64,000 nucleotides of DNA from Streptomyces thermovulgaris (GTDB lineage Bacteria > Actinomycetota > Actinomycetes > Streptomycetales > Streptomycetaceae), in contig NZ_MUME01000034.1 of assembly GCF_002155915.1 (NCBI RefSeq), forward strand, positions 1 through 64,000, written 5' to 3'. This document shows positions 6,592 through 56,782 of this stretch, one piece after another; positions within the stretch are counted from its first letter, which is position 1, and the number at the start of each line of letters is the position of its first letter. The notes under the pieces are model-generated. The model did not search any database. It was not told where the DNA came from and saw nothing but the letters and a program-made list of their open reading frames with translations. The translations under genes were made by a program, and so were the position numbers.

Positions 6592-8116
6592 CGCACCCTC
6601 CCCCCTGTCCCCGGCTTCGCACGAGCAGGAGGCCCCCCGGACCCCCGTACGCGTCCGTTTCTGTCCCTCGCCCACCGGGAACCCCCATGTGGGCCTGGTC
6701 CGCACCGCCCTGTTCAACTGGGCGTTCGCCCGGCACCACCAGGGCACCCTGGTCTTCCGCATCGAGGACACCGACGCCGCGCGCGACTCCGAGGAGTCCT
6801 ACCGGCAGCTGCTGGACGCGATGCGCTGGCTGGGCCTCGACTGGGACGAGGGACCCGAGGTCGGCGGCCCGCACGCGCCGTACCGCCAGTCGCAGCGCAT
6901 GGACATCTACCGGGACGTCGCCCAGAAGCTGCTGGACGCCGGCTACGCCTACCACTGCTACTGCTCCCAGGAGGAGCTGGAGAGCCGCCGTGAGGCCGCC
7001 CGCGCCGCCGGCAGGCCCTCCGGCTACGACGGCCACTGCCGGGACCTGAGCGCCGAGCAGATCGCGGAGTACAAGGCCCAGGGCCGCGCCCCGATCGTCC
7101 GCTTCCGCATGCCCGACGAGACGATCACCTTCACCGACCTGGTCCGCGGCGAGCTGACCTTCAGCCCGGAGAACGTCCCGGACTACGGCATCGTCCGGGC
7201 CAACGGCGCCCCGCTCTACACGCTGGTCAACCCGGTCGACGACGCCCTGATGGAGATCACCCACGTCCTGCGCGGCGAGGACCTGCTCTCCTCCACCCCG
7301 CGCCAGATCGCGCTCTACAAGGCGCTGATGGACCTCGGCATCGCCAAGGGCATCCCCGAGTTCGGCCACCTGCCGTACGTGATGGGCGAGGGCAACAAGA
7401 AGCTGTCCAAGCGCGAGCCGCAGTCCTCGCTGAACCTCTACCGCGAGCGCGGCTTCCTGCCCGAGGGCCTGCTCAACTACCTCTCCCTGCTCGGCTGGTC
7501 GCTCGCGCCCGACCGGGACATCTTCTCCCTGGAGGAGATGGTCGCGGCCTTCGACGTCAAGGACGTGAACCCCAACCCGGCCCGCTTCGACCTGAAGAAG
7601 TGCGAGTCGATCAACGGCGACCACATCCGCCTGCTGGATGTGAAGGAGTTCACCGAGCGCTGCCGCCCGTGGCTGCAGCCCCCGTTCGCCCCCTGGGCCC
7701 CGGAGGACTTCGACGAGGCCAAGTGGCAGGCGATCGCCCCGCACGCCCAGACCCGGGTGAAGGTCCTGTCCGAGATCACGGACAACGTCGACTTCCTGTT
7801 CCTGCCGGAGCCGGTCGAGGACGAGGCGAGCTGGAACAAGGCGATGAAGGAGGGCTCCGACGCCCTTCTGCGCACGGCCCGCGAGAAGCTGGAGGCCGCC
7901 GACTGGACCTCCGCCGAGTCCCTGAAGGAGGCCGTCCAGGCGGCCGGCGAGGTCCACGGCCTCAAGCTCGGCAAGGCCCAGGCCCCGGTCCGCGTCGCCG
8001 TCACCGGCCGCACGGTCGGTCTGCCTCTCTTCGAGTCCCTGCAGGTCCTGGGCAAGGAGAAGGCGCTGGCCAGGATCGACGCGGCACTGGCGAAGCTGAC
8101 GGCGCGGACGGCGTAG
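6584..8116 (+). CDS. gltX: Glutamyl-tRNA synthetase
   Basis: This is a 510-residue class I aminoacyl-tRNA synthetase that charges tRNA-Glu, and in organisms using GatCAB also tRNA-Gln. The HIGH-type motif appears as NPHVGL within [18 protein letters not shown], and the KMSKS-type loop as KLSKRE. A CYC...C cluster in the insertion domain resembles the zinc site of bacterial GluRS. I start at the GTG at 6584 (AAGG 9 nt upstream, overlapping the FAH stop) rather than the TTG at 6575, which has no ribosome site. A Glu/Gln tRNA array lies 1 kb downstream. Confidence 0.97.
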
Positions 8117-8186
8117 GGCAGCACGGACAGCACAAGCCGGCGCAGGACGGCGCAGACGGCGCGCAGAGCAGCGCATCCGCACGCCA

Positions 8187-8215
8187 GGGGCGGCACCCGG
8201 TCCGGGTGCCGCCCC
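8187..8215 (+). terminator. Terminator hairpin after gltX
   Basis: GGGGCGGCACCC pairs with GGGTGCCGCCCC around a GGTCC loop, 70 nt after the gltX stop. It lacks a T-run, as is usual in Streptomyces. It separates gltX from the HAD gene. Confidence 0.75.
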
Positions 8216-8274
8216 GCGTGCTGTCCGGCCGAGGACGGCCCCTGCCCGGCCGGCCCTGGCGTACCGTCGGTGGC

Positions 8275-9009
8275 ATGCGGATCAAAGCCGTGCTCTGGGA
8301 CGTGGACGACACCCTCTTCGACTACACCACCGCCGACCGCGTCGGCATGCGGGAGCACCTGGTGGCCGAGGGACTGCTTCAGGCCCACGGAAGCGTGGAG
8401 GAGGCCCTGGCACGCTGGCGGCGGATCACCGACGAGCAGTGGGCGCGGTTCGCGGCCGGGGAGGTGTCCTTCGAGCAGCAGCGACGGGACCGGGTGCGGG
8501 TCTTCCTCGGCCGGCCGGAGCTGAGCGACGACGAGACCGAGGCGTGGTTCGAGCGGTATCTGAGGCGCTATGAGGCCGCCTGGGCGCTCTTTCCGGACGT
8601 GCTGCCCGTCCTGGACTGCCTCACCGGTGTCTACCGGCACGCGGTGCTGTCCAACTCCAACCTGCGGGTCCAGGAGCACAAGCTGCGCGCCCTCGGGGTG
8701 CGCGACCGCTTCGAGGTCGTGCTGTGCGCCGCCGAGCTCGGCGTGGCGAAGCCGGAGGCCCGGGCGTTCCACGCCGCCTGCGAGGCGCTGGAGCTCGCTC
8801 CGCGTCAGGTGGCGTACGTCGGCGACCACCCGGAGATCGACGGGCGGGGAGCCGCCGAGGCCGGGCTGTTCTCCGTCTGGATCGACCGTGACGGTGCGTG
8901 CGCCGCCCCTGCCGGGGACACCGGTCCGCGCCGGATCACCTCGCTCGCCGAACTGCCCGGCCTCCTCGGCACGGATATGAGTTTTGGCGCCCCGCCCGCC
9001 TTCAGGTAA
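8275..9009 (+). CDS. HAD-superfamily hydrolase
   Basis: This is a 244-residue haloacid-dehalogenase-type phosphatase. The four HAD motifs are visible: DVDDTLFD (nucleophile Asp near residue 9), LSNSN, the lysine in VAKPEARAF, and GDHPEID with the acidic magnesium ligands. A helical cap lies between motifs I and II. The substrate is not predictable. The ATG at 8275 lacks a clear ribosome site but has a -10-like TACCGT ending 7 nt before it, so a leaderless message is plausible. It lies between the gltX terminator and the tRNA array. Confidence 0.9.
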   Translation: MRIKAVLWDVDDTLFDYTTADRVGMREHLVAEGLLQAHGSVEEALARWRRITDEQWARFAAGEVSFEQQRRDRVRVFLGRPELSDDETEAWFERYLRRYEAAWALFPDVLPVLDCLTGVYRHAVLSNSNLRVQEHKLRALGVRDRFEVVLCAAELGVAKPEARAFHAACEALELAPRQVAYVGDHPEIDGRGAAEAGLFSVWIDRDGACAAPAGDTGPRRITSLAELPGLLGTDMSFGAPPAFR

Positions 9010-9060
9010 TGTTCTTCCTGCGCCGCGGGGCACGGGCCACCGGCCCGGAACCGGAGGCGC

Positions 9061-9094
9061 TATCCTAGAACAAGAACCCCTGGACAGGGGCTTG
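9061..9094 (+). promoter_or_regulatory. Probable tRNA-array promoter -10 and leader hairpin
   Basis: A TATCCT hexamer (9061-9066) is followed by a hairpin, CAAG-AA-CCCCTG / CAGGGG-CTTG (9071-9094), just before the first tRNA at 9103. I read this as the -10 element and the 5' leader of the tRNA operon. No convincing -35 hexamer was seen. Confidence 0.45.
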
Positions 9095-9102
9095 CGTTCC
9101 AG

Positions 9103-9174
9103 TGGCCTATGGTGTAATTGGCAGCACGACGGATTCTGGTTCCGTTAGTCTTGGTTCGAGTCCAGGTAGGCCAG
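9103..9174 (+). tRNA. tRNA-Gln (anticodon CUG)
   Basis: This 72-nt cloverleaf has a 7-bp acceptor stem (TGGCCTA / TAGGCCA), discriminator G, and the anticodon stem-loop ACGGA-TTCTGGT-TCCGT with anticodon CTG. The CCA end is not encoded. Confidence 0.97.
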
Positions 9175-9215
9175 CTCGCAGAGCTCATCTGCACCCCGCG
9201 GATCATTATCCGCAA

Positions 9216-9288
9216 GCCCCCGTTGTGTAGCGGCCTAGCACGCTGCCCTCTCAAGGCAGTAGCGCCGGTTCGAATCCGGTCGGGGGTA
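9216..9288 (+). tRNA. tRNA-Glu (anticodon CUC)
   Basis: This 73-nt cloverleaf has acceptor arms GCCCCCG / CGGGGGT (first pair G-U), the anticodon arm CTGCC-CTCTCAA-GGCAG with anticodon CTC, and a T-loop TTCGAAT. The discriminator is A. Confidence 0.97.
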
Positions 9289-9307
9289 CGGATCCTTCGG
9301 GATCAAG

Positions 9308-9380
9308 GCCCCCGTTGTGTAGCGGCCTAGCACGCCGCCCTCTCAAGGCGGTAGCGCCGGTTCGAATCCGGTCGGGGGTA
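9308..9380 (+). tRNA. tRNA-Glu (anticodon CUC), second copy
   Basis: It matches the copy at 9216 except for one base-pair change in the anticodon stem (CCGCC / GGCGG), which keeps the pairing. The anticodon is CTC. Confidence 0.97.
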
Positions 9381-9401
9381 CTCAACAAAATGAAATGCCT
9401 T

Positions 9402-9473
9402 TGGTCTATGGTGTAATTGGCAGCACGACGGATTCTGGTTCCGTTAGTCTTGGTTCGAGTCCAGGTAGACCAG
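9402..9473 (+). tRNA. tRNA-Gln (anticodon CUG), second copy
   Basis: It matches the copy at 9103 except for a compensated acceptor pair (TGGTCTA / TAGACCA). The anticodon is CTG. Confidence 0.97.
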
Positions 9474-9499
9474 CTGATCTGCGGAAACGCATGATCTGC

Positions 9500-9572
9500 G
9501 CCCCCGTTGTGTAGCGGCCTAGCACGCTGCCCTCTCAAGGCAGTAGCGCCGGTTCGAATCCGGTCGGGGGTA
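9500..9572 (+). tRNA. tRNA-Glu (anticodon CUC), third copy
   Basis: It is identical to the copy at 9216 through the cloverleaf. It is the last tRNA of the array, and a terminator starts 10 nt downstream. Confidence 0.97.
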
Positions 9573-9581
9573 CACGGATGG

Positions 9582-9607
9582 AAAGGCCCTCCCTCGGGAG
9601 GGCCTTT
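9582..9607 (+). terminator. Terminator of the tRNA array
   Basis: AAAGGCCCTCCC pairs with GGGAGGGCCTTT, giving a stem that ends in a TTTT tract on the plus strand. Its A-tract also serves the convergent MerR gene on the minus strand. Confidence 0.9.
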
Positions 9608-9622
9608 TCGATGTGTTCGCGG

Positions 9623-10273
9623 TCATTTCCCGTCGAACCGGCGGCGCGACTCCTCCGCCTCCGCGAGCCGGCGCAGGCTGAGCAGCACCGGCTCGTACAG
9701 CACCGTCAGCGCCACCGCGGCCTCCACCTGCTCGTCCGGCGTTCCACAGCGCTCCACCAGGTCCAGGTCGCTGACGGCGATCCGCTCCGCGGCACGGGCA
9801 TACGGCTCCAAGTGCTCGACGTCGCACGGGTAACCGAGCCGGGACAGGGCGGCGATCGCGGTCACCAGCATCCCGTAGGCCGGTGCGGCCGAAGGCCGGT
9901 CGCAGGCGTTGTCGCGGTGCCAGCCGAGCCGCTCCATGAGCGCGTCGGCGGTGCGCCGGGCCGCTTCGGTGGCCTGGTCCGTCTCGTCGGGCTCCGGGCC
10001 GTGCGGCAGGGCCCAGGTGGCGGTGCCCAGCCGCTGGTGGAGATCCATCCGCTCGTCCTGCAGGGCGGCGATCACCTCACGGGCGGAGCTCACCGGGATC
10101 CGTCCCACCTGGATCAGGGCCCGCACCAGCCGCAGGCGCCGCAGATGCCCCTCGTCGTAATCGGCCTGCGTGGCCGTGACACGGCGGCCGGGGTGCAGCA
10201 GCCCTTCGCGCAGATAGAACTTGATCGTCGCGGTGGAGACGCCGCTGCGCGCGCTCAGTTCCGCCAGTCGCAT
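9623..10273 (-). CDS. MerR-family transcriptional regulator
   Basis: This 216-residue protein has an N-terminal MerR winged helix (MRLAELSARSGVSTATIKFY, then LREGLL and a Tyr-Asp-rich wing). A dimerisation helix and a longer C-terminal domain of unknown ligand follow. I start at the ATG at 10273 (AAAGGA 11 nt upstream) because an extension to 10321 only adds residues before the HTH. It is divergent from the DUF4188 gene, and a perfect 7-bp dyad lies between them. The most likely role is control of that neighbour and itself. Confidence 0.88.
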   Translation of the reverse strand: MRLAELSARSGVSTATIKFYLREGLLHPGRRVTATQADYDEGHLRRLRLVRALIQVGRIPVSSAREVIAALQDERMDLHQRLGTATWALPHGPEPDETDQATEAARRTADALMERLGWHRDNACDRPSAAPAYGMLVTAIAALSRLGYPCDVEHLEPYARAAERIAVSDLDLVERCGTPDEQVEAAVALTVLYEPVLLSLRRLAEAEESRRRFDGK

Positions 10274-23212: not shown

Positions 23213-23474
23213 GGGTCACTCCAAAGACTTCAGATGCACGTACGGTTGAGCCCGGCATGCCGGGACCAGATCTCGGGCTCGGGGAGCACTTCGAAATCCG
23301 AGTGGCGCTGCCAGGGAAGAGCCCGACAGGATCGGGCAACTGGAGCAGCATACATCGGCTGCTTCCATGCAGGGAAATTACCATGACGGCTCCGGGGGCC
23401 CGCCCGGGCCCGCTTCCGATCCGCGCCGCCCCGGGGTCTACGCTGCGTCCAGTCCAGCAGCTCAGGGAGGCGCA

Positions 23475-25217
23475 GTGGCGCAGGTGCCGCAGACGTTCGA
23501 CGCGCCGGCGGTGCGCACCTGGTGCGGCCTGGCACTGCGGGCGCTGGGCCGCGCACGCGAGGAGATCGACGCGATCAACGTCTACCCCGTGGCCGACGGG
23601 GACACCGGCACCAACCTGTATCTGACCGTGGAGTCCGCCGCCGCGGCCGTGGAGGCCGTGTTCGCCGCGCACGAACTGAAGAGCGGGGACGGCGGGGACG
23701 GCTCCCCGGGGCCCACCCTGGCCGACGCCGCACGGGCGATGGCCCACGGGGCGCTCATCGGGGCCCGCGGCAACTCCGGGACGATCCTCGCCCAGCTGCT
23801 GCGCGGCATGGCCCAGGTGTTCGCCGCCGACGGCGAGTGCGCGCACACCGACGGCCACGGCCTGCGCCTGGCGCTGCGGCACGCGGCCGACTCCGCCCGG
23901 CAGGCCGTGGCGCACCCCGTGGAGGGCACGGTCCTGTCGGTCGCCTCGGCGGCCGCGGAAGCGGCCACCGGCACCGAGGGCGACTGCGGGGCGGTCGCAC
24001 GGGCGGCCTACGAGGGGGCGTGCGCGGCCCTGGCCGCGACCCCCGGCCAGCTCGAGGTCCTGGAGCGCGCCGGAGTGGTCGACGCCGGCGGACGCGGCCT
24101 GGTGACGGTGCTCGCCGCCCTGGTGGAGACGCTCACGGGACGGCCGCCGGGAGAACCGCCCTTCCCGTCGGGAGCCGCTTCGGCACCGGGAGCGCCGGGA
24201 GCCGGTCCGGCGGCCGGTGCCCTGCCGACCGTGCCGCACGCGCGCACGAGGGACACCGGGGACGACGCGCCGGGCGTCTGCGCCCGGTCCGCGAGCGGCC
24301 CCGCCTTCGAGGTGACCTACCTCCTGGACGCCGAGGACGAGGCCGTCGCCCGGCTGCGCGAACGGCTCGACGCGCTCGGGGACTCCCTGGTCGTGGTCGG
24401 CGGCGACGGGCTGTGGAACGTGCATGTGCACGTCGACGACGCCGGAGCCGCCGTGGAGGCGGGCATCGAGGCCGGACGGCCGCACCGCATCCGCATCACC
24501 CACTTCGGCGCGGACGACGCGCACACCACCGGGGCCGTGGCCCCCCGAGAGCGCGCCCAGCGCGCCGTGGTGGCCGTCGTGCCCGGCGAGGGCCTGGCCG
24601 GGCTGTACACCGAGGCCGGGGCGATCGCGGTGCTCGCCCGCCCGGGGGAGCCGCCCGCGAGCGGCGAGCTCGTGGAGGCCGTGCGGCGGGCGCACGCGCG
24701 CGAGGTGGTCCTGCTGCCCAACGACGACGAACTGCGCCACACCGCGGCCGCCGCGGCCGAACAGGTCCGCGAGGAGGGCGTCCGCGTCGCCCTGATCCCG
24801 ACCCACTCGGCCGTGCAGGGCATCGCCGCCCTCGCCGTGCACGAGCCCGGGCGCCGCTTCGACGAGGACGTCGTCGCGATGACCTCGGCGGCCGGTGAAA
24901 CCCGCTACGCCGAGATCATCGTCGCCGAGCGCCAGTCCTGGACCACGGCCGGCATCTGCCAGGCCGGTGACGTCCTCGGCCTCGTCGACGGCGACGTGGC
25001 CGTGATCGGCCAGGACGTCACGGCCACCGCCGAGGCCGTCCTGGACCGGATGCTCGCGGCCGGCGGCGAGCTGGTCACCCTGGTCCTCGACGACGAGGTC
25101 CCCGACTCCGTCGCCGACCGTCTGCAGGCCCGGGTCCGCGAGGCGTACCTCGCGGTGGACACGGTGGTCTACCGCGGCGGCCGGCAGGGGGCGCTGCTGC
25201 TCATCGGGGTGGAGTAG
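23475..25217 (+). CDS. DAK2/DegV-like kinase (FakA-type fatty acid kinase family)
   Basis: This 580-residue protein has an N-terminal DhaL/DAK2 kinase domain (NVYPVADGDTGTNL, GARGNSGTILAQLLRG, GVVDAGGRGLVTVL) and a C-terminal DegV-like domain ending in VDTVVYRGGRQGALLLIGVE. A variable Ala/Gly/Pro-rich linker (about residues 225-265) joins them. The architecture is that of FakA, which phosphorylates fatty acids bound by a separate FakB/DegV protein; no FakB is adjacent. The GTG at 23475 has GGGAGG 4 nt upstream. The gene usually sits before recG; here two minus-strand genes intervene. Confidence 0.92.
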   Translation: MAQVPQTFDAPAVRTWCGLALRALGRAREEIDAINVYPVADGDTGTNLYLTVESAAAAVEAVFAAHELKSGDGGDGSPGPTLADAARAMAHGALIGARGNSGTILAQLLRGMAQVFAADGECAHTDGHGLRLALRHAADSARQAVAHPVEGTVLSVASAAAEAATGTEGDCGAVARAAYEGACAALAATPGQLEVLERAGVVDAGGRGLVTVLAALVETLTGRPPGEPPFPSGAASAPGAPGAGPAAGALPTVPHARTRDTGDDAPGVCARSASGPAFEVTYLLDAEDEAVARLRERLDALGDSLVVVGGDGLWNVHVHVDDAGAAVEAGIEAGRPHRIRITHFGADDAHTTGAVAPRERAQRAVVAVVPGEGLAGLYTEAGAIAVLARPGEPPASGELVEAVRRAHAREVVLLPNDDELRHTAAAAAEQVREEGVRVALIPTHSAVQGIAALAVHEPGRRFDEDVVAMTSAAGETRYAEIIVAERQSWTTAGICQAGDVLGLVDGDVAVIGQDVTATAEAVLDRMLAAGGELVTLVLDDEVPDSVADRLQARVREAYLAVDTVVYRGGRQGALLLIGVE

Positions 25218-25325
25218 CTCCCCCGCGAAATCCGCGGGCGGCGGCGGGCCGTCGCCCACCGCCCGCCGCCGGGCCCCTCGCGCCCCGGCTCCTCGCGCCC
25301 CGGCTCCTCGCGTCCCCGGGGCGCT

Positions 25326-28286
25326 TCAGCCCTCCGGCTGCCTGCCCAGGACGTCCAGCAGCCGCTCGGCCTCCGCGCACCGCAGCTGCGGCAGGTCCTC
25401 CCCGGCGCCCGCGCCCCTGACGCCCCGGCCGCCCGGCTGGGTCCGGTAGGCCGCCAGGACGTCGCGTGCGCGCCGCTCCGCCTCGGCGGACCGCCCCAGG
25501 TCGGCCGCCAGCCAGCCGGCGGCGAGCTCCGCACCGGTCCGCTCGTGCAGGGCGTTCGGCCCCAGCAGCGCGAAGGCGGCGATCGCCTGCTCCATCCTGG
25601 CGAGGGCCTCCTCGAGCCCGGCCCGGGACACCCCGCCCTCCGCGCCGGTGGCGACACCCGCGAGCAGATCGCCGAACTGACGGTGCGTGTGACCGAGTTC
25701 GGCCACGAACCGCTGCCGCGCCACCTCGTCGTCGGCACGGTCCCGCGCCTTCTCGCACTCCGCGACGGCGGACCTCATCAGCTCCCGCGCGGCCTGCGGC
25801 CCGGCCTCGGTGCGCAGCGCCAGCCAGGCCCGGGCACGGGTGGCGCGCACCAGGCCGTGCACGCTGTCCAGGGAGCGCCACAGATCGCACGCGCGCGCGT
25901 AGGCACGGTCCGCCTCCTCGTGCAGCCCCGCCCGGCTCAGCGACTCGGCGGCCAGGTGGGCGAGGGTCGCGTGGTCCTGCTGCTCGGGCCAGTGCCGGGC
26001 GATCTCGGCGGCCCGGAGCCGGTGCTCGGCGGCCGCCCGGTGCTCCCCGAGCTCGCTCAGACAGTCGCCGAGCCACCACCGCGTCTGCACGACCGCCCCG
26101 TCGCCGTGCGTCTCCACGGACAGCTCCAGGAGCGCGGACTCCAGCACCTCGGCGGCCTCGGCCCACCGCCCCTGCCGCAGCAGCAGCCCGCCGAGCTGCT
26201 GGCGCGCCCAGGCCCCGAGGGCCGGCCCCTCCTTCGCCTCGTCGGCCCAGTGCGCCGCCTCCAGGGCGTGCCGCGCCGCCTCCTCGACCCGGTCCAGGCC
26301 GCCGAGCACCTCGGCGAGCTGCAGATGCAGCTGGGCCCGTCCCGCGGCCTCCAGATGCGCCCCGCCGTGCTCCAGGGCCGCCCGCAGCGCCCGCTCGGCC
26401 CGCTCCGGGTCGCCCAGGTGGTACGCGAGCCCCGCCAGCCGGGCCTCGTACTCCACCGCGAACCACGGCACCCCGGCCCCGGCGTACTCGGCCGCGGCCC
26501 GCTCGAACAGCTCCACGGCCGTGTGCGGGTCCCCGGTGCGCGCGGCGATCTCCGCGAGCATCGCCCGCGCCTCGGCCGCCCGGGTGGTGAGCCGCACGTC
26601 GTCACCGGTGCGCCCCTCGACGAGCGCCAGCACCTCCCGGGCGGCCCGTTCGGCGGCGGACAGCACCTCGAGGTCCACGGGACCGTCGGCCAGGTGCACC
26701 GGCCGCATCAGGATCCGCGCCCGCGCCATCACCACGGACGCGGTCTGCCGTACGCCGGTGCCCCCCTCGGCGTACAGCGCGAGGACCCGTTCGTACGGCT
26801 CGGCGACCGCGGCGCGTGCCCCCTCCACGTCGCCCGCCAGCGCCCGGACGTACGCCGCACGCGCGCGGGCCGCCAGCGCCTCGCCCGGATCGCCCGCCTC
26901 CGCGTACAGCTCGGCGGCCCGCTCGAACAGCGCGGCGCCCTCGGGGCCCCTGCTCATCGCCTCGTGGTCGGCGATCTCGGCCCGGTCCCGGGCGTCCAGC
27001 TCGACGCCCTGCGCGGCCCGTGCCACCGCCGCCCAGGCCTCCACGGCGTTCGGCTGCAGGGTGTCCGACAGGCGGCGCGCCTCGGCGATCAGCGCGGACA
27101 GGTCGGCCGTCTGCGGCGCCGCCGGCTCGGCGGGGACCCGCGGCGCGGGAGCCGGGGCGGGGGCGGCGGACCGCGTCGTGCGCACCCCCAGCGGCAGCCG
27201 GTCCACCAGCGGGCGCTGCGCCATGCGCGCGCGTGTCCGCTCCCCGACGTGCGAGGAGCCGTTGCGCTCGTCGAAGCGGGCCGCCAGGGCCGACGCCTCC
27301 GTACGCGCGTGCGCGGCGAGCTCGCGGGCCGTCCAGTCGCGTCCCGCCGGCCCGGGCACCGGCTGCTCGCCCATCCCCAGCTCGACCAGCCGGTCCATGA
27401 GCAGGGCCACCACCGCGAGGAAGTCCAGCTTGCCGCGCGGATGACCGTCGTCCGTGAAGTACGCGGGCCGCTGCGCCAGCAGCTCCAGCGCCCGCGCCTC
27501 GTTGCCGGTCAGCGCGCAGAACTCCACGTGCTCGGCGTAGGTGCTGCGCATGCTCTCCATCTGCCGCACCAGCCGGATGCCCCGCAGATGGTGGGCGCGC
27601 GCCTCGTCGAGGCGGCCGAGCCGCAGCAGCGGCAGCAGGGAGGTGCCGAGGACCGCGTGCGGCTCGTGGGCACAGGAGAACTCGCCGTCCAGCACCGGCC
27701 GCCACAGCTCGAGGGCCTCCGCGTCCCGGCCGCGCTCGGCCTGCCACCAGCCCTGGTCGTGCAGCTCGCAGGCGTGGCAGTCGGCCATGCGGTCCCGGTC
27801 GGCGGCCAGCCACGCCGCATACGCCCGCTCCGCCCGCTCCAGGTCCCCGATGTGCCAGGCGACGCTGAACTCGGCGCTGCGCACGGCCCGTTCGGAGTAA
27901 CCGGCGAGCCGGTAGCGGCGCTCCATCTCGCCGAGCCACTTCTCGATGGAGGCCAGCGGAATGTGCGGCTGGCCCAGCATGCCCGCCGACATCCACTTGA
28001 AGGCCCAGTGCAGCGAGTGGGCCTCGTACTCGTCGAAGTCCTCGGGGCGTTCGTCCCACATGCGCAGCAGCCGCGCGAAGGGGACGAACATCTTGTCCTT
28101 CTCGGAGCTGTAGTTGTAGACCGTCAGCTGGTGCCCCAGCGCCTCGATCACGCCCAGCGGGATGTTCAGCCTCTCGGCCTCGGCCAGCAGCTGCTCCGCG
28201 CGGGCGTTGCGGGCCGGCCCCTCCGGCTGCTCGCCGTTGGCGGCTATCGCCCGGCGCAGGGAGTCCAGGTCGGTGATCTCGCTCAT
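25326..28286 (-). CDS. Large TPR-like repeat protein coupled to Hsp90
   Basis: This is a 986-residue protein, nearly all helix. A first block (to about residue 365) has degenerate repeats, then a PAPAPAPRVPAEPAAP linker, then about 600 residues of TPR-like units (for example GDPGEALAARARAAYVRALA, GDPERAERALRAALEHGG, GLHEEADRAYARACDLW). There is no signal peptide or catalytic motif. The ATG at 28286 has GGAGG 7 nt upstream and overlaps the Hsp90 stop as ATGA, so the two are made together. A scaffold or client adaptor for the Hsp90 is the natural inference. The pair is absent from my memory of the same locus in S. coelicolor. Confidence 0.85.
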   Translation of the reverse strand: MSEITDLDSLRRAIAANGEQPEGPARNARAEQLLAEAERLNIPLGVIEALGHQLTVYNYSSEKDKMFVPFARLLRMWDERPEDFDEYEAHSLHWAFKWMSAGMLGQPHIPLASIEKWLGEMERRYRLAGYSERAVRSAEFSVAWHIGDLERAERAYAAWLAADRDRMADCHACELHDQGWWQAERGRDAEALELWRPVLDGEFSCAHEPHAVLGTSLLPLLRLGRLDEARAHHLRGIRLVRQMESMRSTYAEHVEFCALTGNEARALELLAQRPAYFTDDGHPRGKLDFLAVVALLMDRLVELGMGEQPVPGPAGRDWTARELAAHARTEASALAARFDERNGSSHVGERTRARMAQRPLVDRLPLGVRTTRSAAPAPAPAPRVPAEPAAPQTADLSALIAEARRLSDTLQPNAVEAWAAVARAAQGVELDARDRAEIADHEAMSRGPEGAALFERAAELYAEAGDPGEALAARARAAYVRALAGDVEGARAAVAEPYERVLALYAEGGTGVRQTASVVMARARILMRPVHLADGPVDLEVLSAAERAAREVLALVEGRTGDDVRLTTRAAEARAMLAEIAARTGDPHTAVELFERAAAEYAGAGVPWFAVEYEARLAGLAYHLGDPERAERALRAALEHGGAHLEAAGRAQLHLQLAEVLGGLDRVEEAARHALEAAHWADEAKEGPALGAWARQQLGGLLLRQGRWAEAAEVLESALLELSVETHGDGAVVQTRWWLGDCLSELGEHRAAAEHRLRAAEIARHWPEQQDHATLAHLAAESLSRAGLHEEADRAYARACDLWRSLDSVHGLVRATRARAWLALRTEAGPQAARELMRSAVAECEKARDRADDEVARQRFVAELGHTHRQFGDLLAGVATGAEGGVSRAGLEEALARMEQAIAAFALLGPNALHERTGAELAAGWLAADLGRSAEAERRARDVLAAYRTQPGGRGVRGAGAGEDLPQLRCAEAERLLDVLGRQPEG

Positions 28287-30163
28287 CGGTGATCCTCCCC
28301 CGGCGCGTCGGTGCCGTGGTGGGTGGCCCACTCCAGCAGGCCGATGAACGCGCGGTTCAGCAGCGCCGAGTCGGCGGGCCGCAGCGGGCGCTGCGCCATC
28401 AGCAGCGCCTGTCCGTACAGCGACTCGGTCGCCGTCCCGATCAGCTCCGCGTCGCGCAGCGAACCGATCCTGCGGACCAGCGGGTTGAGGTGGTTGAGCA
28501 CCAGACGCGCACGGGGAGCGCTGCCCCGCAGCGAGCCGAGGATGCCCGCCCACAGGTCGTCGGCCTGCGCCTCGGCCTGGGCGCGGGCCTGCTCGTGCCG
28601 GGCCGCCCGGTCGTCCAGGTGCAGCGCGGGCACGGACAGCGGGTGGAAGGCGCGCAGCACCACGTCGCAGCCCAGCGGGTCCAGCCTGGCCCGCGCGGCG
28701 GCCAGGAAGCCCGACAGGGCCAGCTCCTCGGCCGGGTCGACGGGGTCCAGATGGGCGGTCACGGTGTCCGCGTCCAGCTCGGCGACCGCCGTCCCCGGAC
28801 GCACCGACGGCAGCGCCTCGACCAGCTCGCTGTCGTAGGTGTAGCCGCCGTTGACGACGCCGATGCCCTGCGCGGAGGCGATCGGCGCGACCTGCCGGTA
28901 CTCCTCGACCGTGCGCGTGAAGTGCACGACCGGGTGGCGCTGCGCGAACTCCTCCAGGGACATCTGCCCGTCGGTCGTCTCGAACGGCAGCCACGGCAGC
29001 ATCGTGCGCAGCATCTCCGCGTCGTGCCGGGCCAGCGACTTCACACCCAGGTGATGCACCGACAGAAAGGCGGCCAGCCGCTCCGGATCGCCGGCCGCGA
29101 GATCGGCCAGCCAGGAGCGGATCCGCTCGCCCAGCGCCTCGCGCACACCGGCCAGCGTCTCGTCCTCGTACAGCGCCTCGCGCGAGGCGGTGGGCCGCAG
29201 GCTGTCCGTGTCGAGCACGCAGCGCACGAAGAACGCCCAGTCGGGCAGCAGCTGTTCGGCCCGGTCGGTCAGCAGCATGCCCTTCAGGTGCACACGGTGG
29301 CCCGCCCGCTGTGCGGGACTGACCGCCGACGGCAGCACATAGGCCACCCCGCGGATCCCGGCCAGCGGCACGTCCAGGTCGATGGAGTCCAGCGGGGTGA
29401 AGCCGAACAGCTCGTGGCAGTGCCGGGCCAGGGCGACCCGGCGGGCGGCGGGGGAGGGGTACGACCGGTCCCAGGGCGCGGGCAGGTCGGTGACGGCCTC
29501 CTCGCCCACGCGCACGTCGTACGGCAGCAGCGAGCCGAAGTCCCGGGCCAGCGCGAGCACCCGCTCCTCGGTCAGCCACTCGCCGGCCCCCGCCCGCGCC
29601 TGGAGGTGCACGGTGGTGCCGGGCTCCGGACGGGCGGAGCGGGGCAGGGTCCGCACGGTGTACGAGCCGTCGTCGCACGCCGTCCACTCCACGGGCGGGG
29701 CGTCCGGCACCCGGGCGCTGCGGCTGACCACCCGGATCCGGTCGGCCACCACGAAGCAGGCCAGCAGGCCGATGCCGAACTGGCCGAGGAAGTCCGAGCG
29801 GGCCTCCTGCAGCCCCTCGGCCCGCTTGGAGCTGCGGCCGATGGTGGCCAGCAGCTCGTGCACATCGGTCTCGGTCAGACCGATGCCGGTGTCCTCCACC
29901 CGGAGGGTGGTGCCGTCCGCGAACAGCCGCACCCGGGCGGGGGCGTCCGGCTCCCCGGCACGCCGGGCGGTGAGGGCGTCCACGGCGTTCTGCAGCAGTT
30001 CGCGCAGATAGACCTTGGGACTGGAGTACAGGTGGTGCGAGAGCAGGTCCACCAGACCGCGCAGGTCGACCTGGAACGTGTGGGCCGACTGGGACTGCTG
30101 GTGAGACTGCGATGCCTGGGAGGTCTGGGATGCCTGAGATGACTGTGAGGTCTCGAAGTCCAT
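28283..30163 (-). CDS. Divergent Hsp90-family ATPase
   Basis: This is a 626-residue Hsp90/HtpG-family protein. After a Gln/Ser-rich N-terminal leader (residues 6-26) the GHKL ATPase motifs follow: YLRELLQNAVDAL (catalytic Glu and Mg-binding Asn), EDTGIGLTETDV in place of DNGIGM, the lid ATIGRSSKR, and FLGQFGIGLLACFVVADRI. The middle-domain arginine that contacts ATP is kept in SREALYEDE. The C-terminal dimer domain is poorly conserved and has no EEVD-type tail. It differs enough from housekeeping HtpG to be a separate subfamily. It forms an overlapping operon with a giant TPR-like protein, unusual for bacterial Hsp90, and is divergent from recG. Confidence 0.9.
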   Translation of the reverse strand: MDFETSQSSQASQTSQASQSHQQSQSAHTFQVDLRGLVDLLSHHLYSSPKVYLRELLQNAVDALTARRAGEPDAPARVRLFADGTTLRVEDTGIGLTETDVHELLATIGRSSKRAEGLQEARSDFLGQFGIGLLACFVVADRIRVVSRSARVPDAPPVEWTACDDGSYTVRTLPRSARPEPGTTVHLQARAGAGEWLTEERVLALARDFGSLLPYDVRVGEEAVTDLPAPWDRSYPSPAARRVALARHCHELFGFTPLDSIDLDVPLAGIRGVAYVLPSAVSPAQRAGHRVHLKGMLLTDRAEQLLPDWAFFVRCVLDTDSLRPTASREALYEDETLAGVREALGERIRSWLADLAAGDPERLAAFLSVHHLGVKSLARHDAEMLRTMLPWLPFETTDGQMSLEEFAQRHPVVHFTRTVEEYRQVAPIASAQGIGVVNGGYTYDSELVEALPSVRPGTAVAELDADTVTAHLDPVDPAEELALSGFLAAARARLDPLGCDVVLRAFHPLSVPALHLDDRAARHEQARAQAEAQADDLWAGILGSLRGSAPRARLVLNHLNPLVRRIGSLRDAELIGTATESLYGQALLMAQRPLRPADSALLNRAFIGLLEWATHHGTDAPGEDHR

Positions 30164-30331
30164 CGTCGCAGCGCCGTCGTGGGGGGACCGCAGGTCGGCG
30201 CGGGGTCGGGCGGTCCCGGTGGGGCGGTGACCGCGAAAGGGGGCCGGAGCGCGTCATCCTAGAACCCGGACGGCCGGGCCGACCAGGGGGTTTCGACGAC
30301 GTGCACGGCATTGTCGGTGCCGTGGTGTGCA

Positions 30332-32566
30332 ATGGAACCCGTGTCCGCACCGAGAGAAGCACTGCAACAACCGCTGAAGTCGGTGCTCGGTCCCGCCACC
30401 GCGAAGGTGATGGCCGAGCATCTCGGCCTGCACACCGTCGGCGACCTCCTCCACCACTACCCGCGCAGATACGAGGAGCGCGGCCGGCTCACCCGCCTCG
30501 CCGACCTGCCCATGGACGAGCACGTCACGGTGGTCGCCCAGGTGGCCGACGCCCGTCTGCACACCTTCGCCTCCTCCCGGGCGCCCCGCGGCAAGGGCCA
30601 GCGCCTGGAGGTGACGATCACGGACGGCAGCGGCCGGCTCCAACTGGTCTTCTTCGGCAACGGCGTGCACAAGCCCCACAAGGAACTGCTGCCGGGCACA
30701 CGCGCGATGTTCGCGGGCAAGGTCTCCGTCTTCAACCGGCGGCTGCAACTGGCCCACCCGGCCTATGAGTTGCTCAGGGACGACACCGAGGAGACGGTCG
30801 AGAGCTGGGCCGGTGCCCTCATCCCCATCTACCCGGCCACCGCCAGGCTGGAGTCCTGGAAGATCGGCAAGGCGGTCCAGACCGTCCTGCCCAGCGCCCA
30901 GGAGGCCGTCGACCCGCTGCCCGAGTCCCTCCGCGCGGGCCGCGGCCTGATCCCCCTGCCCGAGGCCCTGCTCAAGATCCACCGCCCGCACACCAAGGCG
31001 GACGTCGCCGAGGCCCGCGCCCGTCTGAAGTGGGACGAGGCCTTCGTCCTCCAGGTCGCCCTCGCCCGCCGCCGCCACGCGGATACCCAGCTTCCCGCCG
31101 TCCCCCGCCGCCCCGGGCCGGACGGTCTCCTCGCCGCCTTCGACGCCCGCCTCCCCTTCACCCTCACCGAGGGGCAGCAGAAGGTCTCCCGAGAGATCCT
31201 CGACGACCTGGCCCGCGAGCACCCGATGCACCGCCTGCTCCAGGGAGAGGTCGGCAGCGGCAAGACGCTGGTCGCCCTGCGCGCCATGCTCGCCGTCGTC
31301 GACGCCGGCGGACAGGCCGCGATGCTCGCGCCCACCGAGGTGCTGGCCCAGCAGCACCACCGGTCGATCACCGAGATGATGGGGGAGCTGGCCGAGGGAG
31401 GGATGCTGGGCGGACCCGAGCACGCCACCAAGGTGGTGCTGCTCACCGGCTCCATGGGCGCCGCCGCCCGCCGCCAGGCCCTGCTCGACCTGGCCACCGG
31501 CGAAGCCGGCATCGTCATCGGCACCCACGCCCTGATCGAGGACAAGGTCCAGTTCCACGACCTGGGGCTGGTCGTCGTGGACGAACAGCACCGCTTCGGC
31601 GTCGAGCAGCGCGACGCCCTGCGGGGCAAGGGGAACTCCCGGGGGGAGAAGCGGACCCCGCACCTGCTCGTCATGACCGCGACCCCCATCCCGCGCACGG
31701 TCGCGATGACGGTCTTCGGCGACCTGGAGACCTCCGTCCTCGACCAGCTCCCGGCGGGCCGCTCGCCCATCGCCAGCCATGTCGTCCCGGCCGCCGACAA
31801 GCCGCACTTCCTGGCCCGGGCCTGGGAGCGGGTGCGCGAGGAGGTGGCGAAGGGCCACCAGGCGTACGTGGTCTGCCCGCGCATCGGGGACGAACCGGTG
31901 GACGAGGGGAAGGGCGCCCGGAGGAAGTCCCCCGAGGACGAGGCCGAGAAGCGCCCGCCGCTCGCCGTCCTCGACGTCGCCGAGCAGCTCGCCGGGGGAC
32001 CGCTGCACGGCCTGCGGGTCGAGGTGCTGCACGGCCGGATGCAGCCCGACGACAAGGACGCCGTCATGCGCCGCTTCGCCGAGGGGAAGACCGACGTCCT
32101 GGTCGCCACCACGGTCATCGAGGTCGGGGTGAACGTGCCGAACGCCACCGTGATGGTGATCATGGACGCCGACCGCTTCGGCGTCTCCCAGCTGCACCAG
32201 CTGCGCGGACGCGTCGGCCGCGGCTCCGCCCCGGGCCTGTGCCTGCTGGTCACCGAGATGCCCGAGGCGAGCACCGCGCGCCGGCGGCTGGACGCGGTGG
32301 CCTCCACCCTCGACGGCTTCGAGCTCTCCCGCATCGACCTCGAGCAGCGCCGCGAGGGCGACGTCCTCGGCCAGGCCCAGTCCGGCTCCCGCTCCAGCCT
32401 GCGGGTGCTCGCCGTCATCGAGGACGAGGAGATCATCGCCCAGGCCCGCGAGGAGGCCGCCGCCGTGGTCGCCGCCGACCCGGACCTGGAGCACCTGCCC
32501 GGACTGCGCACGGCCCTGGACGCCCTGCTGGACGAGGAGCGGGAGCAGTACCTGGAGAAGGGCTGA
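30332..32566 (+). CDS. recG: ATP-dependent DNA helicase RecG
   Basis: This 744-residue SF2 helicase reverses stalled forks. It has an N-terminal wedge/OB domain (GDLLHHYPRRYEERG, GRLQLVFFGN), Walker A GEVGSGKT near residue 305, the DEQH box (VVDEQHRFG) near 416, MTATPIPRT, and the motif VI segment HQLRGRVGRG. A charged insertion (about 525-545, GKGARRKSPEDEAEKR) between helicase motifs looks lineage-specific. The start is the ATG at 30332; a GTG at 30341 is possible, and no clear ribosome site discriminates. Confidence 0.96.
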   Translation: MEPVSAPREALQQPLKSVLGPATAKVMAEHLGLHTVGDLLHHYPRRYEERGRLTRLADLPMDEHVTVVAQVADARLHTFASSRAPRGKGQRLEVTITDGSGRLQLVFFGNGVHKPHKELLPGTRAMFAGKVSVFNRRLQLAHPAYELLRDDTEETVESWAGALIPIYPATARLESWKIGKAVQTVLPSAQEAVDPLPESLRAGRGLIPLPEALLKIHRPHTKADVAEARARLKWDEAFVLQVALARRRHADTQLPAVPRRPGPDGLLAAFDARLPFTLTEGQQKVSREILDDLAREHPMHRLLQGEVGSGKTLVALRAMLAVVDAGGQAAMLAPTEVLAQQHHRSITEMMGELAEGGMLGGPEHATKVVLLTGSMGAAARRQALLDLATGEAGIVIGTHALIEDKVQFHDLGLVVVDEQHRFGVEQRDALRGKGNSRGEKRTPHLLVMTATPIPRTVAMTVFGDLETSVLDQLPAGRSPIASHVVPAADKPHFLARAWERVREEVAKGHQAYVVCPRIGDEPVDEGKGARRKSPEDEAEKRPPLAVLDVAEQLAGGPLHGLRVEVLHGRMQPDDKDAVMRRFAEGKTDVLVATTVIEVGVNVPNATVMVIMDADRFGVSQLHQLRGRVGRGSAPGLCLLVTEMPEASTARRRLDAVASTLDGFELSRIDLEQRREGDVLGQAQSGSRSSLRVLAVIEDEEIIAQAREEAAAVVAADPDLEHLPGLRTALDALLDEEREQYLEKG

Positions 32567-55234: not shown

Positions 55235-56782
55235 GTGTTCGACACTCTCTCCGACCGCTTGTCAGCCACTTTCAAGTCCCTGCGGGGCAAGGGCAGGCTG
55301 TCCGAGGCGGACATCGACGCCACGGCCCGGGAGATCCGCATCGCGCTCCTCGAGGCCGATGTGGCGCTTCCCGTCGTCCGGGCCTTCATCAAGAGGGTCA
55401 AGGAAAGGGCGCTCGGCGCCGAGGTCTCCCGCGCGCTGAACCCGGCACAGCAGTTCATCAAGATCGTCAACGATGAACTCGTCGAGATCCTGGGCGGCGA
55501 GACCCGTCGTCTCCGCTTCGCCAAGCAGCCCCCCACCGTGATCATGCTCGCCGGCCTCCAGGGTGCCGGTAAGACCACCCTCGCGGGCAAGCTCGGCAAG
55601 TGGCTCAAGGATCAGGGGCACTCCCCGGTGCTGGTCGCCGCCGACCTCCAGCGCCCGAACGCCGTCAACCAGCTCAGCATCGTCGCCGAGCGGGCCGGCG
55701 TCGCCGTCTACGCACCCGAGCCGGGCAACGGTGTGGGCGACCCGGTCAAGGTCGCCAAGGACTCCATCGACTTCGCGAAGAACAAGCTCCACGACATCGT
55801 GATCGTGGACACCGCCGGCCGTCTCGGCGTCGACGCCGAGATGATGCAGCAGGCCGCGGACATCAGGGACGCGATCCAGCCCGACGAGATCCTGTTCGTC
55901 GTCGACGCCATGATCGGTCAGGACGCCGTCAACACCGCGGAGGCGTTCCGCGACGGCGTCGGCTTCGACGGCGTGGTGCTCTCCAAGCTCGACGGCGACG
56001 CCCGCGGTGGTGCGGCCCTGTCGATCCGCCAGGTCACCGGCAAGCCGATCATGTTCGCGTCGAACGGCGAGAAGCTCGAGGACTTCGACGCGTTCCACCC
56101 GGACCGGATGGCCTCCCGCATCCTCGACATGGGTGACCTGCTCACCCTGATCGAGCAGGCGGAGAAGACGTTCAGCAGGGAAGAGGCCGAGAGGATGGCC
56201 TCCAAGCTGGCGTCCAAGAAGGGGCAGGACTTCACCCTGGACGACTTCCTGGCCCAGATGGAGCAGGTCAGGAAGATGGGGTCGATCTCCAAGCTCCTCG
56301 GCATGCTGCCCGGCATGGCCCAGATCAAGGACCAGATCAACAACATCGACGAGCGCGACGTCGACCGCACCGCCGCGATCATCAAGTCGATGACACCGGC
56401 CGAACGCCAGGACCCGACGATCATCAACGGCTCCCGCCGCGCCCGTATCGCCAAGGGCGCCGGTGTCGAGGTGAGCGCCGTCAAGAACCTGGTCGAGCGC
56501 TTCTTCGAGGCCCGCAAGATGATGTCCCGCATGGCCCAGGGCGGCGGCTTCCCCGGCATGCCGGGGATCCCGGGCATGGGCGGCGGCCCCGGCCGGGCGA
56601 GGAAGCAGCAGAAGAAGGCCAAGGGCAGGCAGCGCTCCGGCAACCCGATGAAGCGCAAGCAGCAGGAGCAGGAGGCGGCGGCCCGCCGCGCCGCGGCCCA
56701 GGGCGGCGGCGCCTTCGGGCTGCCGCAGCAGGGCGGTCAGGGCTTCGAGCTCCCGGAGGAGTTCAAGAAGTTCATGAGCTGA
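55235..56782 (+). CDS. ffh: Signal recognition particle protein Ffh
   Basis: This 515-residue SRP54 homologue binds 4.5S RNA and signal peptides. It has an N domain, a G domain with GLQGAGKTTLAGKLG (from about residue 108), DTAGRLGVD and SKLDGDARGG, and a Met-rich M domain (KMGSISKLLGMLPGMAQ, then the SRP RNA-binding GSRRARIAKGAG). A flexible Gly/Met/Gln/Lys-rich tail follows. The GTG at 55235 has GAGGA 11 nt upstream, and a -10-like TACCCT lies at 55183-55188. A terminator follows. Confidence 0.97.
   Translation: MFDTLSDRLSATFKSLRGKGRLSEADIDATAREIRIALLEADVALPVVRAFIKRVKERALGAEVSRALNPAQQFIKIVNDELVEILGGETRRLRFAKQPPTVIMLAGLQGAGKTTLAGKLGKWLKDQGHSPVLVAADLQRPNAVNQLSIVAERAGVAVYAPEPGNGVGDPVKVAKDSIDFAKNKLHDIVIVDTAGRLGVDAEMMQQAADIRDAIQPDEILFVVDAMIGQDAVNTAEAFRDGVGFDGVVLSKLDGDARGGAALSIRQVTGKPIMFASNGEKLEDFDAFHPDRMASRILDMGDLLTLIEQAEKTFSREEAERMASKLASKKGQDFTLDDFLAQMEQVRKMGSISKLLGMLPGMAQIKDQINNIDERDVDRTAAIIKSMTPAERQDPTIINGSRRARIAKGAGVEVSAVKNLVERFFEARKMMSRMAQGGGFPGMPGIPGMGGGPGRARKQQKKAKGRQRSGNPMKRKQQEQEAAARRAAAQGGGAFGLPQQGGQGFELPEEFKKFMS

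Follow-up and report, generated by a model that had tools for sequence, protein, structure and literature searches.

Why a bacterium should encode a divergent Hsp90 in direct overlap with a 986-residue helical-repeat protein is the question raised by positions 25326 to 30163 of a 64,000-nucleotide stretch of Streptomyces thermovulgaris DNA (contig NZ_MUME01000034.1; this whole stretch is called the window below). Bacterial Hsp90 is usually presented as operating without dedicated co-chaperones of the tetratricopeptide repeat (TPR) type. The two genes constitute a real module that spans bacterial phyla, and the window carries a typical actinobacterial version of it. That the same partner is made with an old and sparsely studied type of Hsp90 in many bacteria suggests a two-part Hsp90 machine, and a dedicated bacterial complex of Hsp90 with a TPR co-chaperone, i.e., a two-component machine, is probable in our judgement, if not strongly so. 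The Hsp90 family itself was already known; the partner and its tight coupling to Hsp90 appear unreported in the literature searched. The features of the pair are as follows.

28283..30163 (-): Hsp90 gene, 626 aa, NF010683/PRK14083 type, probable Group C HtpG, with N-terminal, middle and C-terminal domains
25326..28286 (-): partner gene, 986 aa, helical-repeat/TPR protein, ATGA-coupled to the Hsp90 gene (open reading frame, TPR_12 match, AlphaFold2 model)
28283..28286 (-): ATGA start/stop overlap, from the junction sequence; putative translational coupling
27207..28286 (-): partner core, residues 1-360, kept across nine phyla (profile and alignment)
27768..27779 (-): CxxC motif (C170, C173) in D-C-x-A-C-E, candidate metal/redox site together with C205
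27672..27674 (-): third conserved cysteine, C205 (alignment of 145 cores)
25437..27101 (-): C-terminal TPR superhelix, residues 396-950, a mostly actinobacterial extension with conservation below that of the core

The junction between the two genes in the window reads ...CACCGATGAGCG..., with the ATGA overlap. Both open reading frames (ORFs) and this junction bear out a preliminary description, made from the sequence alone, of two overlapping genes that are made together, and co-translation is supported as well.

Distribution and coupling of the gene pair

A tblastn search of plasmid records with the partner protein matched 6 records, from Listeria, Actinomyces and Streptomyces, the Listeria match being to a gene 11 nt downstream of that for an 'HSP90 family protein'; a 353-aa partner from Paenibacillus overlapped Hsp90 by 4 nt. 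Alignment indicated that only the first ~350 residues of the partner are common to its relatives, with a conserved core of ~360 residues. Profiles of this core and of Hsp90 were run over all loci, which were chosen by Hsp90 match, the window and two Listeria records being already known to bear a partner. The total examined was 159 Hsp90 loci with profile scores above 350 bits, a count that leaves aside short-flank loci (L001-L032 and L113-L136) and Hsp90-like proteins below this threshold, which itself lay between the nearest excluded protein (L154, 328 bits) and the lowest one kept (546 bits).

The core was found on the same strand as Hsp90 at 151 of these 159 loci, which are not an even sample since close relatives are numerous among them (Streptomyces-like, Paenibacillus, Corallococcus and Actinomadura). 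At 145 of the 151, the core lay within -50 to +60 nt of the Hsp90 stop, and 97 of these close pairs overlapped the Hsp90 gene, 59 by exactly 4 nt, including the pair in the window (start codons chosen by script). As for the remaining six, L216 and L217 adjoin Hsp90 but were automatically given an incorrect start, the starts of L198, L203 and L231 are 88-203 nt downstream and L230 lies upstream. A genome scan with the Hsp90 alignment, from which the best 80 of 576 relatives were used, revealed the core in 74 of these 80 (on the other strand in L194 and upstream in L230), and two of the six core-less loci (L170 and L192) were contig ends. Partner-bearing loci were from nine phyla (Actinomycetota, Bacillota, Bacteroidota, Planctomycetota, Acidobacteriota, Myxococcota, Pseudomonadota, Deinococcota and Thermodesulfobacteriota). 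The association of this Hsp90 with the core is far above chance, and the Hsp90 type is no Streptomyces novelty but a deep bacterial group that bears the partner in all nine phyla. The dedicated partner proposed in the preliminary description was thus present in nearly every relative examined, and its adjacency to Hsp90, which had been suggested for examination across Actinobacteria, extends well beyond them.

No core was found beside canonical HtpG at any of 11 control loci, and TPR matches were absent from the co-directional ORFs taken downstream of HtpG at 10 of these loci, although several such ORFs may not be real genes. Among 61 genomes of the family to which the window belongs, the core was present in 38, i.e., in 37 of 37 with the Hsp90 and in 1 of 24 without it (G044), and in a phylum sample of 149 genomes (at most 12 candidates scored per genome) it was present in 4, every one with the Hsp90. 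Occurrence of the TPR-like gene mostly without the Hsp90, which had been named in advance as an outcome that would tell against the pair, was therefore not what these genomes held. In samples of 150 family genomes and 396 genomes taken phylum-wide, with Hsp90 counted above the NF010683 cut-off, an Hsp90 of this type was present in 94 and 12 genomes, respectively. Eighty loci around family matches were fetched for neighbourhood comparison. A homologue of the window partner adjoined Hsp90 on the same strand in 72 of 72 loci with an NF010683-type Hsp90 and was absent by tblastn at the 8 loci with other Hsp90 types (5 with T2, an Hsp90-like type described below, and 3 with HtpG).

Clustering of neighbour ORFs at 80 named loci, with the 25 largest clusters viewed, revealed no third gene that kept to one position from phylum to phylum. 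Most clusters were shadow ORFs, opposite in strand or different in frame, or reflected same-genus synteny, and the few mixed ones (e.g., of 8 and 7 loci) occupied varied positions on both strands; the longest member of the 7-locus cluster was ABC transporter-like by eye.

The Hsp90 and its partner

The window Hsp90 scored 870.4 bits against NCBIfam NF010683 ('HSP90 family protein', cut-off 455) and 181.8 bits against the HtpG model NF003555 (cut-off 371), which places it within the former family and outside canonical HtpG. Relaxed RE(L)xQN and PTASRE patterns, which we take to be ATPase motifs with the catalytic glutamate and the middle-domain arginine, were kept in 157 and 155, respectively, of the 159 Hsp90s of the group. 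By these motifs the group is assigned to the Hsp90 superfamily (GHKL ATPase chaperones), in line with the earlier claim that this divergent Hsp90 keeps its ATPase residues. Sequence matches of the window Hsp90 in the PDB were to TRAP1 and HtpG, the best of them ending near residue 410. The predicted model of the Hsp90 of one relative (L178) aligned with full-length TRAP1/Hsp90 over 628 columns, with a root-mean-square deviation (rmsd) of 10.8, and since this model spans the length of TRAP1, the C-terminal domain appears to have diverged rather than been lost; the predicted architecture is that of an N-terminal, a middle and a C-terminal dimerisation domain (N-M-C). None of 145 Hsp90s ended in EEVD, so that docking of a partner cannot use the TPR-EEVD contact of eukaryotes.

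In a tree of 48 selected Hsp90 rows, 30 rows of this type, 11 HtpG rows and 6 T2 rows each lay on one side of a branch with 100/100 support, and the window Hsp90 grouped with other partner-bearing Hsp90s, again with 100/100 support; L154 and L139 formed long branches of unsure placement. Canonical HtpG (Group A type), although alike in Hsp90 fold and ATPase motifs, is thus a separate clade (100/100), the core adjoining it in 0 of 11 loci. The present type is probably the Group C HtpG of Chen et al., as judged from its phylum distribution and from the inclusion of Listeria and S. coelicolor in the set of those authors. In Chen et al. 2006 (PMC1525184), bacterial HtpG is split into Groups A, B and C, and S. 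coelicolor is given as having two HtpG copies of different groups. Group C, or hsp90C, is described in the same paper and in Press et al. 2013 (PMC3708813) as a deep branch separate from the Group A HtpG of the E. coli type, with reports of it in Actinobacteria, Firmicutes, gamma-proteobacteria, Bacteroidetes and Spirochaetales; the latter study is limited to hsp90A, with hsp90B and hsp90C set aside. The window protein, with its match to NF010683, resembles Group C in being a member of a deep bacterial Hsp90 branch; no partner gene is described in the sections covered of PMC1525184 and PMC3708813. Neither a description of the TPR partner or the pair nor a functional study of Group C HtpG was found in the open-licence PMC literature searched. 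The Listeria gene lmo0941, which figures in PMC6901971 as a hypothetical protein of unknown function with signals of selection, is probably the Listeria partner gene, given its location near fri and lmo0942. A leucine at the position of yeast N92 (geldanamycin pocket) was considered as a marker for placing S. hygroscopicus HtpG. This leucine was present in both clades and so decides nothing on that placement.

The window partner scored 43.4 bits against Pfam TPR_12 (cut-off 30.1), in six stretches, and was predicted by AlphaFold2 to consist of helices nearly throughout (predicted local distance difference test (pLDDT) 93.0, predicted template modelling score (pTM) 0.88), with a disordered linker at residues 373-394 between the core and the C-terminal part. 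In structure comparisons, which covered mainly residues 372-982, the C-terminal part resembled the TPR superhelices of LGN, OGT and KLC (Z up to 19.8, rmsd 5.1 over 333 residues). Two of four core-only partners scanned just passed one TPR model and the other two matched none. Mean pairwise identity among 53 full-length partners was 0.50 for the core as opposed to 0.34 for the C-terminal part. At 73 named same-strand loci, the first partner was 330-385 aa long in 61, 687-970 aa long in 9, all of them Actinomycetota, and shorter than 330 aa in 3, each cut off or broken; at 68 of 75 actinobacterial loci from family and class searches, the partner was at least 840 aa long. Outside Actinomycetota the first partner is usually the core alone (~330-385 aa), and most actinobacterial partners add the TPR superhelix. 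Second partner genes for proteins of 756-758 aa in two Oscillospiraceae (L214 6519-8786 and L229 7777-10050) indicate that a long extension is not strictly actinobacterial. With regard to the giant helical partner of the preliminary description, the all-helical model and the TPR_12 match agree with it, but the size is mainly an actinobacterial trait and wide conservation is limited to the ~360 residues of the core.

C170, C173 and C205 were each present in 140 of 145 cores, in a set that leaves out truncated or odd partners (L173, L189, L216, L217 and L230) and one identical Hsp90, and the remaining five cores were without all three. At four of these five loci, a further partner gene with CxxC was noted downstream (0.9 kb further on in L214). 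Other strongly conserved core residues were W94, K97, W98, P209, D339, R341 and N342. Judged by sequence, the cysteine triad is probably a joint metal or redox site. Several partner genes were noted behind one Hsp90, four in L225 and two each in L229, L232, L208, L214 and L151. In Myroides pelagicus (L225 6773-11209), the four partner genes are in tandem and CxxC occurs in the second alone; in Listeria monocytogenes (L151 7797-9762), it occurs in both of the tandem genes.

Distances between Hsp90s were correlated with those between cores over 145 pairs (r=0.948; largest value of 1000 permutations, 0.134) and also within the family (r=0.933), and the nearest neighbour was identical for Hsp90 and core in just 80 of the 145 pairs. 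In 11 genomes with two pairs, Hsp90 and core were assigned alike to paralogues in 55 of 55 genome-by-genome comparisons, which are not independent of each other; this result indicates that partners were not swapped between paralogous pairs.

The proposed machine and its rivals

Direct support exists for the sequence family, the gene coupling, the strict co-occurrence in the genomes searched and the co-inheritance without swapping. The same is true of the conserved ATPase motifs, the predicted helical fold, the all-or-none cysteine triad and the missing EEVD. A physical complex, a metal or redox role and client loading are what we infer beyond these. In such a complex, a bacterial Hsp90 lineage of ancient origin (probably Group C) would work with a dedicated, co-translated TPR-type partner, the ~360-residue core of which would dock on Hsp90 in an EEVD-independent mode. 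The three-cysteine site of the core would probably bind metal or serve as a redox switch, the TPR superhelix added in actinobacteria would recruit or present clients and Hsp90 would run its usual ATP-driven clamp cycle on the clients delivered by its partner. Eukaryotic Hsp90 with its TPR co-chaperones (Hop, FKBP51/52, PP5 and XAP2) offers a likeness in that an N-M-C Hsp90 is combined with a TPR solenoid protein. However, the bacterial Hsp90s, being without EEVD (0 of 145), are not of the eukaryotic MEEVD-clamp type, and the bacterial core is of a different family, bears the cysteine triad and is co-translated with its own Hsp90. Bacteria are without a Hop orthologue, according to the abstract of PMC7688965. 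Should the complex exist, bacteria would have evolved Hsp90-adaptor machines on their own, apart from those of eukaryotes. The conserved co-translated partner is a first concrete handle on this Hsp90 branch, with a predicted subunit and a conserved site that is a candidate for metal binding or activity; small, tractable test systems exist in nature as genomes with two pairs and as core-only partners.

Several observations weigh against this proposal. The read-through chain of Hsp90 and partner from L178, in which the Hsp90 stop directly precedes the partner ATG, was modelled with well-folded parts (pLDDT 85.6) but a pTM of 0.60, which speaks neither for nor against an interface, no fused Hsp90-core ORF was found among the 159 loci and the correlation of distances is what would be expected for any co-inherited pair. 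Orphan partner genes were also noted, one in G044 (L273 3805-8438) beside an IS110-like transposase ORF (by eye), with no Hsp90 in its 13-kb stretch, where one would be expected, and one for a 1011-aa homologue on a plasmid of Actinomyces oris (L155 5842-8877), with no Hsp90 match on the 415-kb plasmid record. Conversely, the Hsp90s of L139, L184, L207, L221 and L222 were without an adjacent core, with no contig end as the cause, and no partner was detected next to Hsp90 in the latter four. The Hsp90 of L139 (8701-11369) is a very divergent member of the same clade, and the ORF that comes next and overlaps it, of 298-328 aa, has no core match but TPR matches just over two cut-offs, perhaps a third type of partner. 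The core of L194 was on the strand opposite to Hsp90, that of L230 lay upstream of Hsp90 by ~2.9 kb (by start position) and was without CxxC, and the cysteine triad was missing from the sole partner of L237, as were cysteines from the only partner of L230, a locus outside the 145-row set.

An obligate chaperone-client pair would, moreover, give much the same pattern, and the main rival makes the TPR protein a private client of Hsp90, which as a specialised foldase would mature or stabilise its own solenoid protein for action elsewhere. Gene order (chaperone first, target second) with close coupling suits this explanation, as do a widespread core with a variable extension and the two to four partner genes found with one Hsp90, as if clients shared the chaperone, whereas partners were almost never found apart from Hsp90 in the genomes searched. 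The all-or-none cysteine triad together with the conserved WxxKW and FDxRN looks like a functional site, which counts against a mere client while leaving room for one, and on balance we think this explanation unlikely. A mobile stress or defence module, with the Hsp90-type ATPase and the TPR protein as sensor and effector, would agree with the accessory position between DAK2 and recG (see below), with the patchy spread in the family and phylum samples (94 of 150 and 12 of 396 genomes), with the 61% identity between T2 Hsp90s from an actinobacterial genome and a Xanthomonas plasmid and with the TIR gene that adjoins a distant Hsp90-like gene in Pseudanabaena. PADLOC, however, gave no hit for the partner and matched Hsp90 only weakly, in the ATP-binding (N) domain, with TmtA and restriction enzymes as the targets, and no third gene recurs in a fixed place; this module is considered improbable. 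A known anti-phage defence system was rejected, PADLOC being without a whole-protein match for either Hsp90 or partner, and nothing in the analysis links the pair with secondary metabolism, development or defence, the roles put forward as examples in the preliminary description. Both proteins may share one operon and one pathway without contact, yet conservation of order and coupling over nine phyla without swapping of paralogous pairs is unusual for mere pathway mates, and this explanation is very improbable.

The dedicated complex has a counterpart of sorts in the T2 type, in which an Hsp90-like gene was directly followed by a gene for a TPR-like protein of ~775 aa in 6 of 6 loci. This pair resembles that of the window in having an Hsp90-type ATPase gene directly before a helical-repeat-like gene but differs in its separate Hsp90 clade and in that no match to the core profile was found in T2 loci; the two T2 partners scanned gave weak, sub-threshold TPR matches. 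A T2 pair on the Xanthomonas vasicola plasmid pXVH29 (L156 5947-10170) was 61% identical in Hsp90 and 35-37% identical in partner to an actinobacterial pair (L094 5607-9847), and the former value suggests horizontal transfer. Non-canonical bacterial Hsp90s seem prone to partnerships with helical-repeat proteins. A broader reading, which we hold tentatively and with some doubt, is that throughout the deep Hsp90 branch, which spans nine phyla or more, the chaperone forms one obligate machine with a dedicated TPR co-chaperone that depends on metal or redox state and acts independently of the eukaryotic EEVD system, while the T2 branch recruited a different TPR-like protein. Non-canonical Hsp90s would then as a rule have a helical-repeat partner, and canonical HtpG would be exceptional in having none. 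On a Pseudanabaena plasmid (L154 5213-10795), an Hsp90-like gene with a long C-terminal extension, a hypothetical gene and a TPR gene were noted, with a divergent TIR-domain gene adjoining.

Genomic setting of the window pair

The pair is flanked by two genes, which bear the names given to them in the preliminary description.

23367..25217 (+): DAK2-family gene, ORF; left flank of the insertion
30311..32566 (+): recG, ORF; right flank, divergent from the Hsp90 gene

Fifteen of the 72 fetched pairs were placed between DAK2 and recG like that of the window, all in the same genus, and of the 38 genomes of this genus, counting that of the window, 16 had a pair at this site; the pair is thus not universal at the locus, universality having been named in advance as an outcome that would tell against the proposal. 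Fifteen of the 22 congeneric genomes without a pair there were examined, and in 15 of 15 a DAK2 homologue directly adjoined recG, with 9-304 nt between match ends. This adjacency indicates that the pair is an accessory insertion at that spot, as had been supposed from the gene order of S. coelicolor. In other genomes of the family the pair sits at different sites, and 11 genomes hold two pairs. In one family genome (G122, L089, ~8017-9794), Hsp90 matched as two overlapping pieces in different frames, which suggests a frameshifted gene, and the partner was intact.

No second Hsp90 was found in the source genome of the window except for one ATPase match of 25 bits, so that the window Hsp90, as the sole one detected, is not an extra beside a canonical HtpG there. 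A search for the sites of known heat-shock repressors lent no support to control of this kind: within 3 mismatches, nothing CIRCE-like or HAIR-like was found in the 64-kb window, and the single RheA-like match, at 56377, was rejected as being about what chance would yield. A short GC-rich direct repeat at ~25270-25322, in the gap where the TPR gene and DAK2 converge, consists by eye of ~3 copies of a ~15-nt unit like GGGGCGCGAGGAGCC. Elsewhere in the window, at 9103-9573, five clustered tRNA genes were noted, with the anticodons Gln(CTG), Glu(CTC), Glu(CTC), Gln(CTG) and Glu(CTC).

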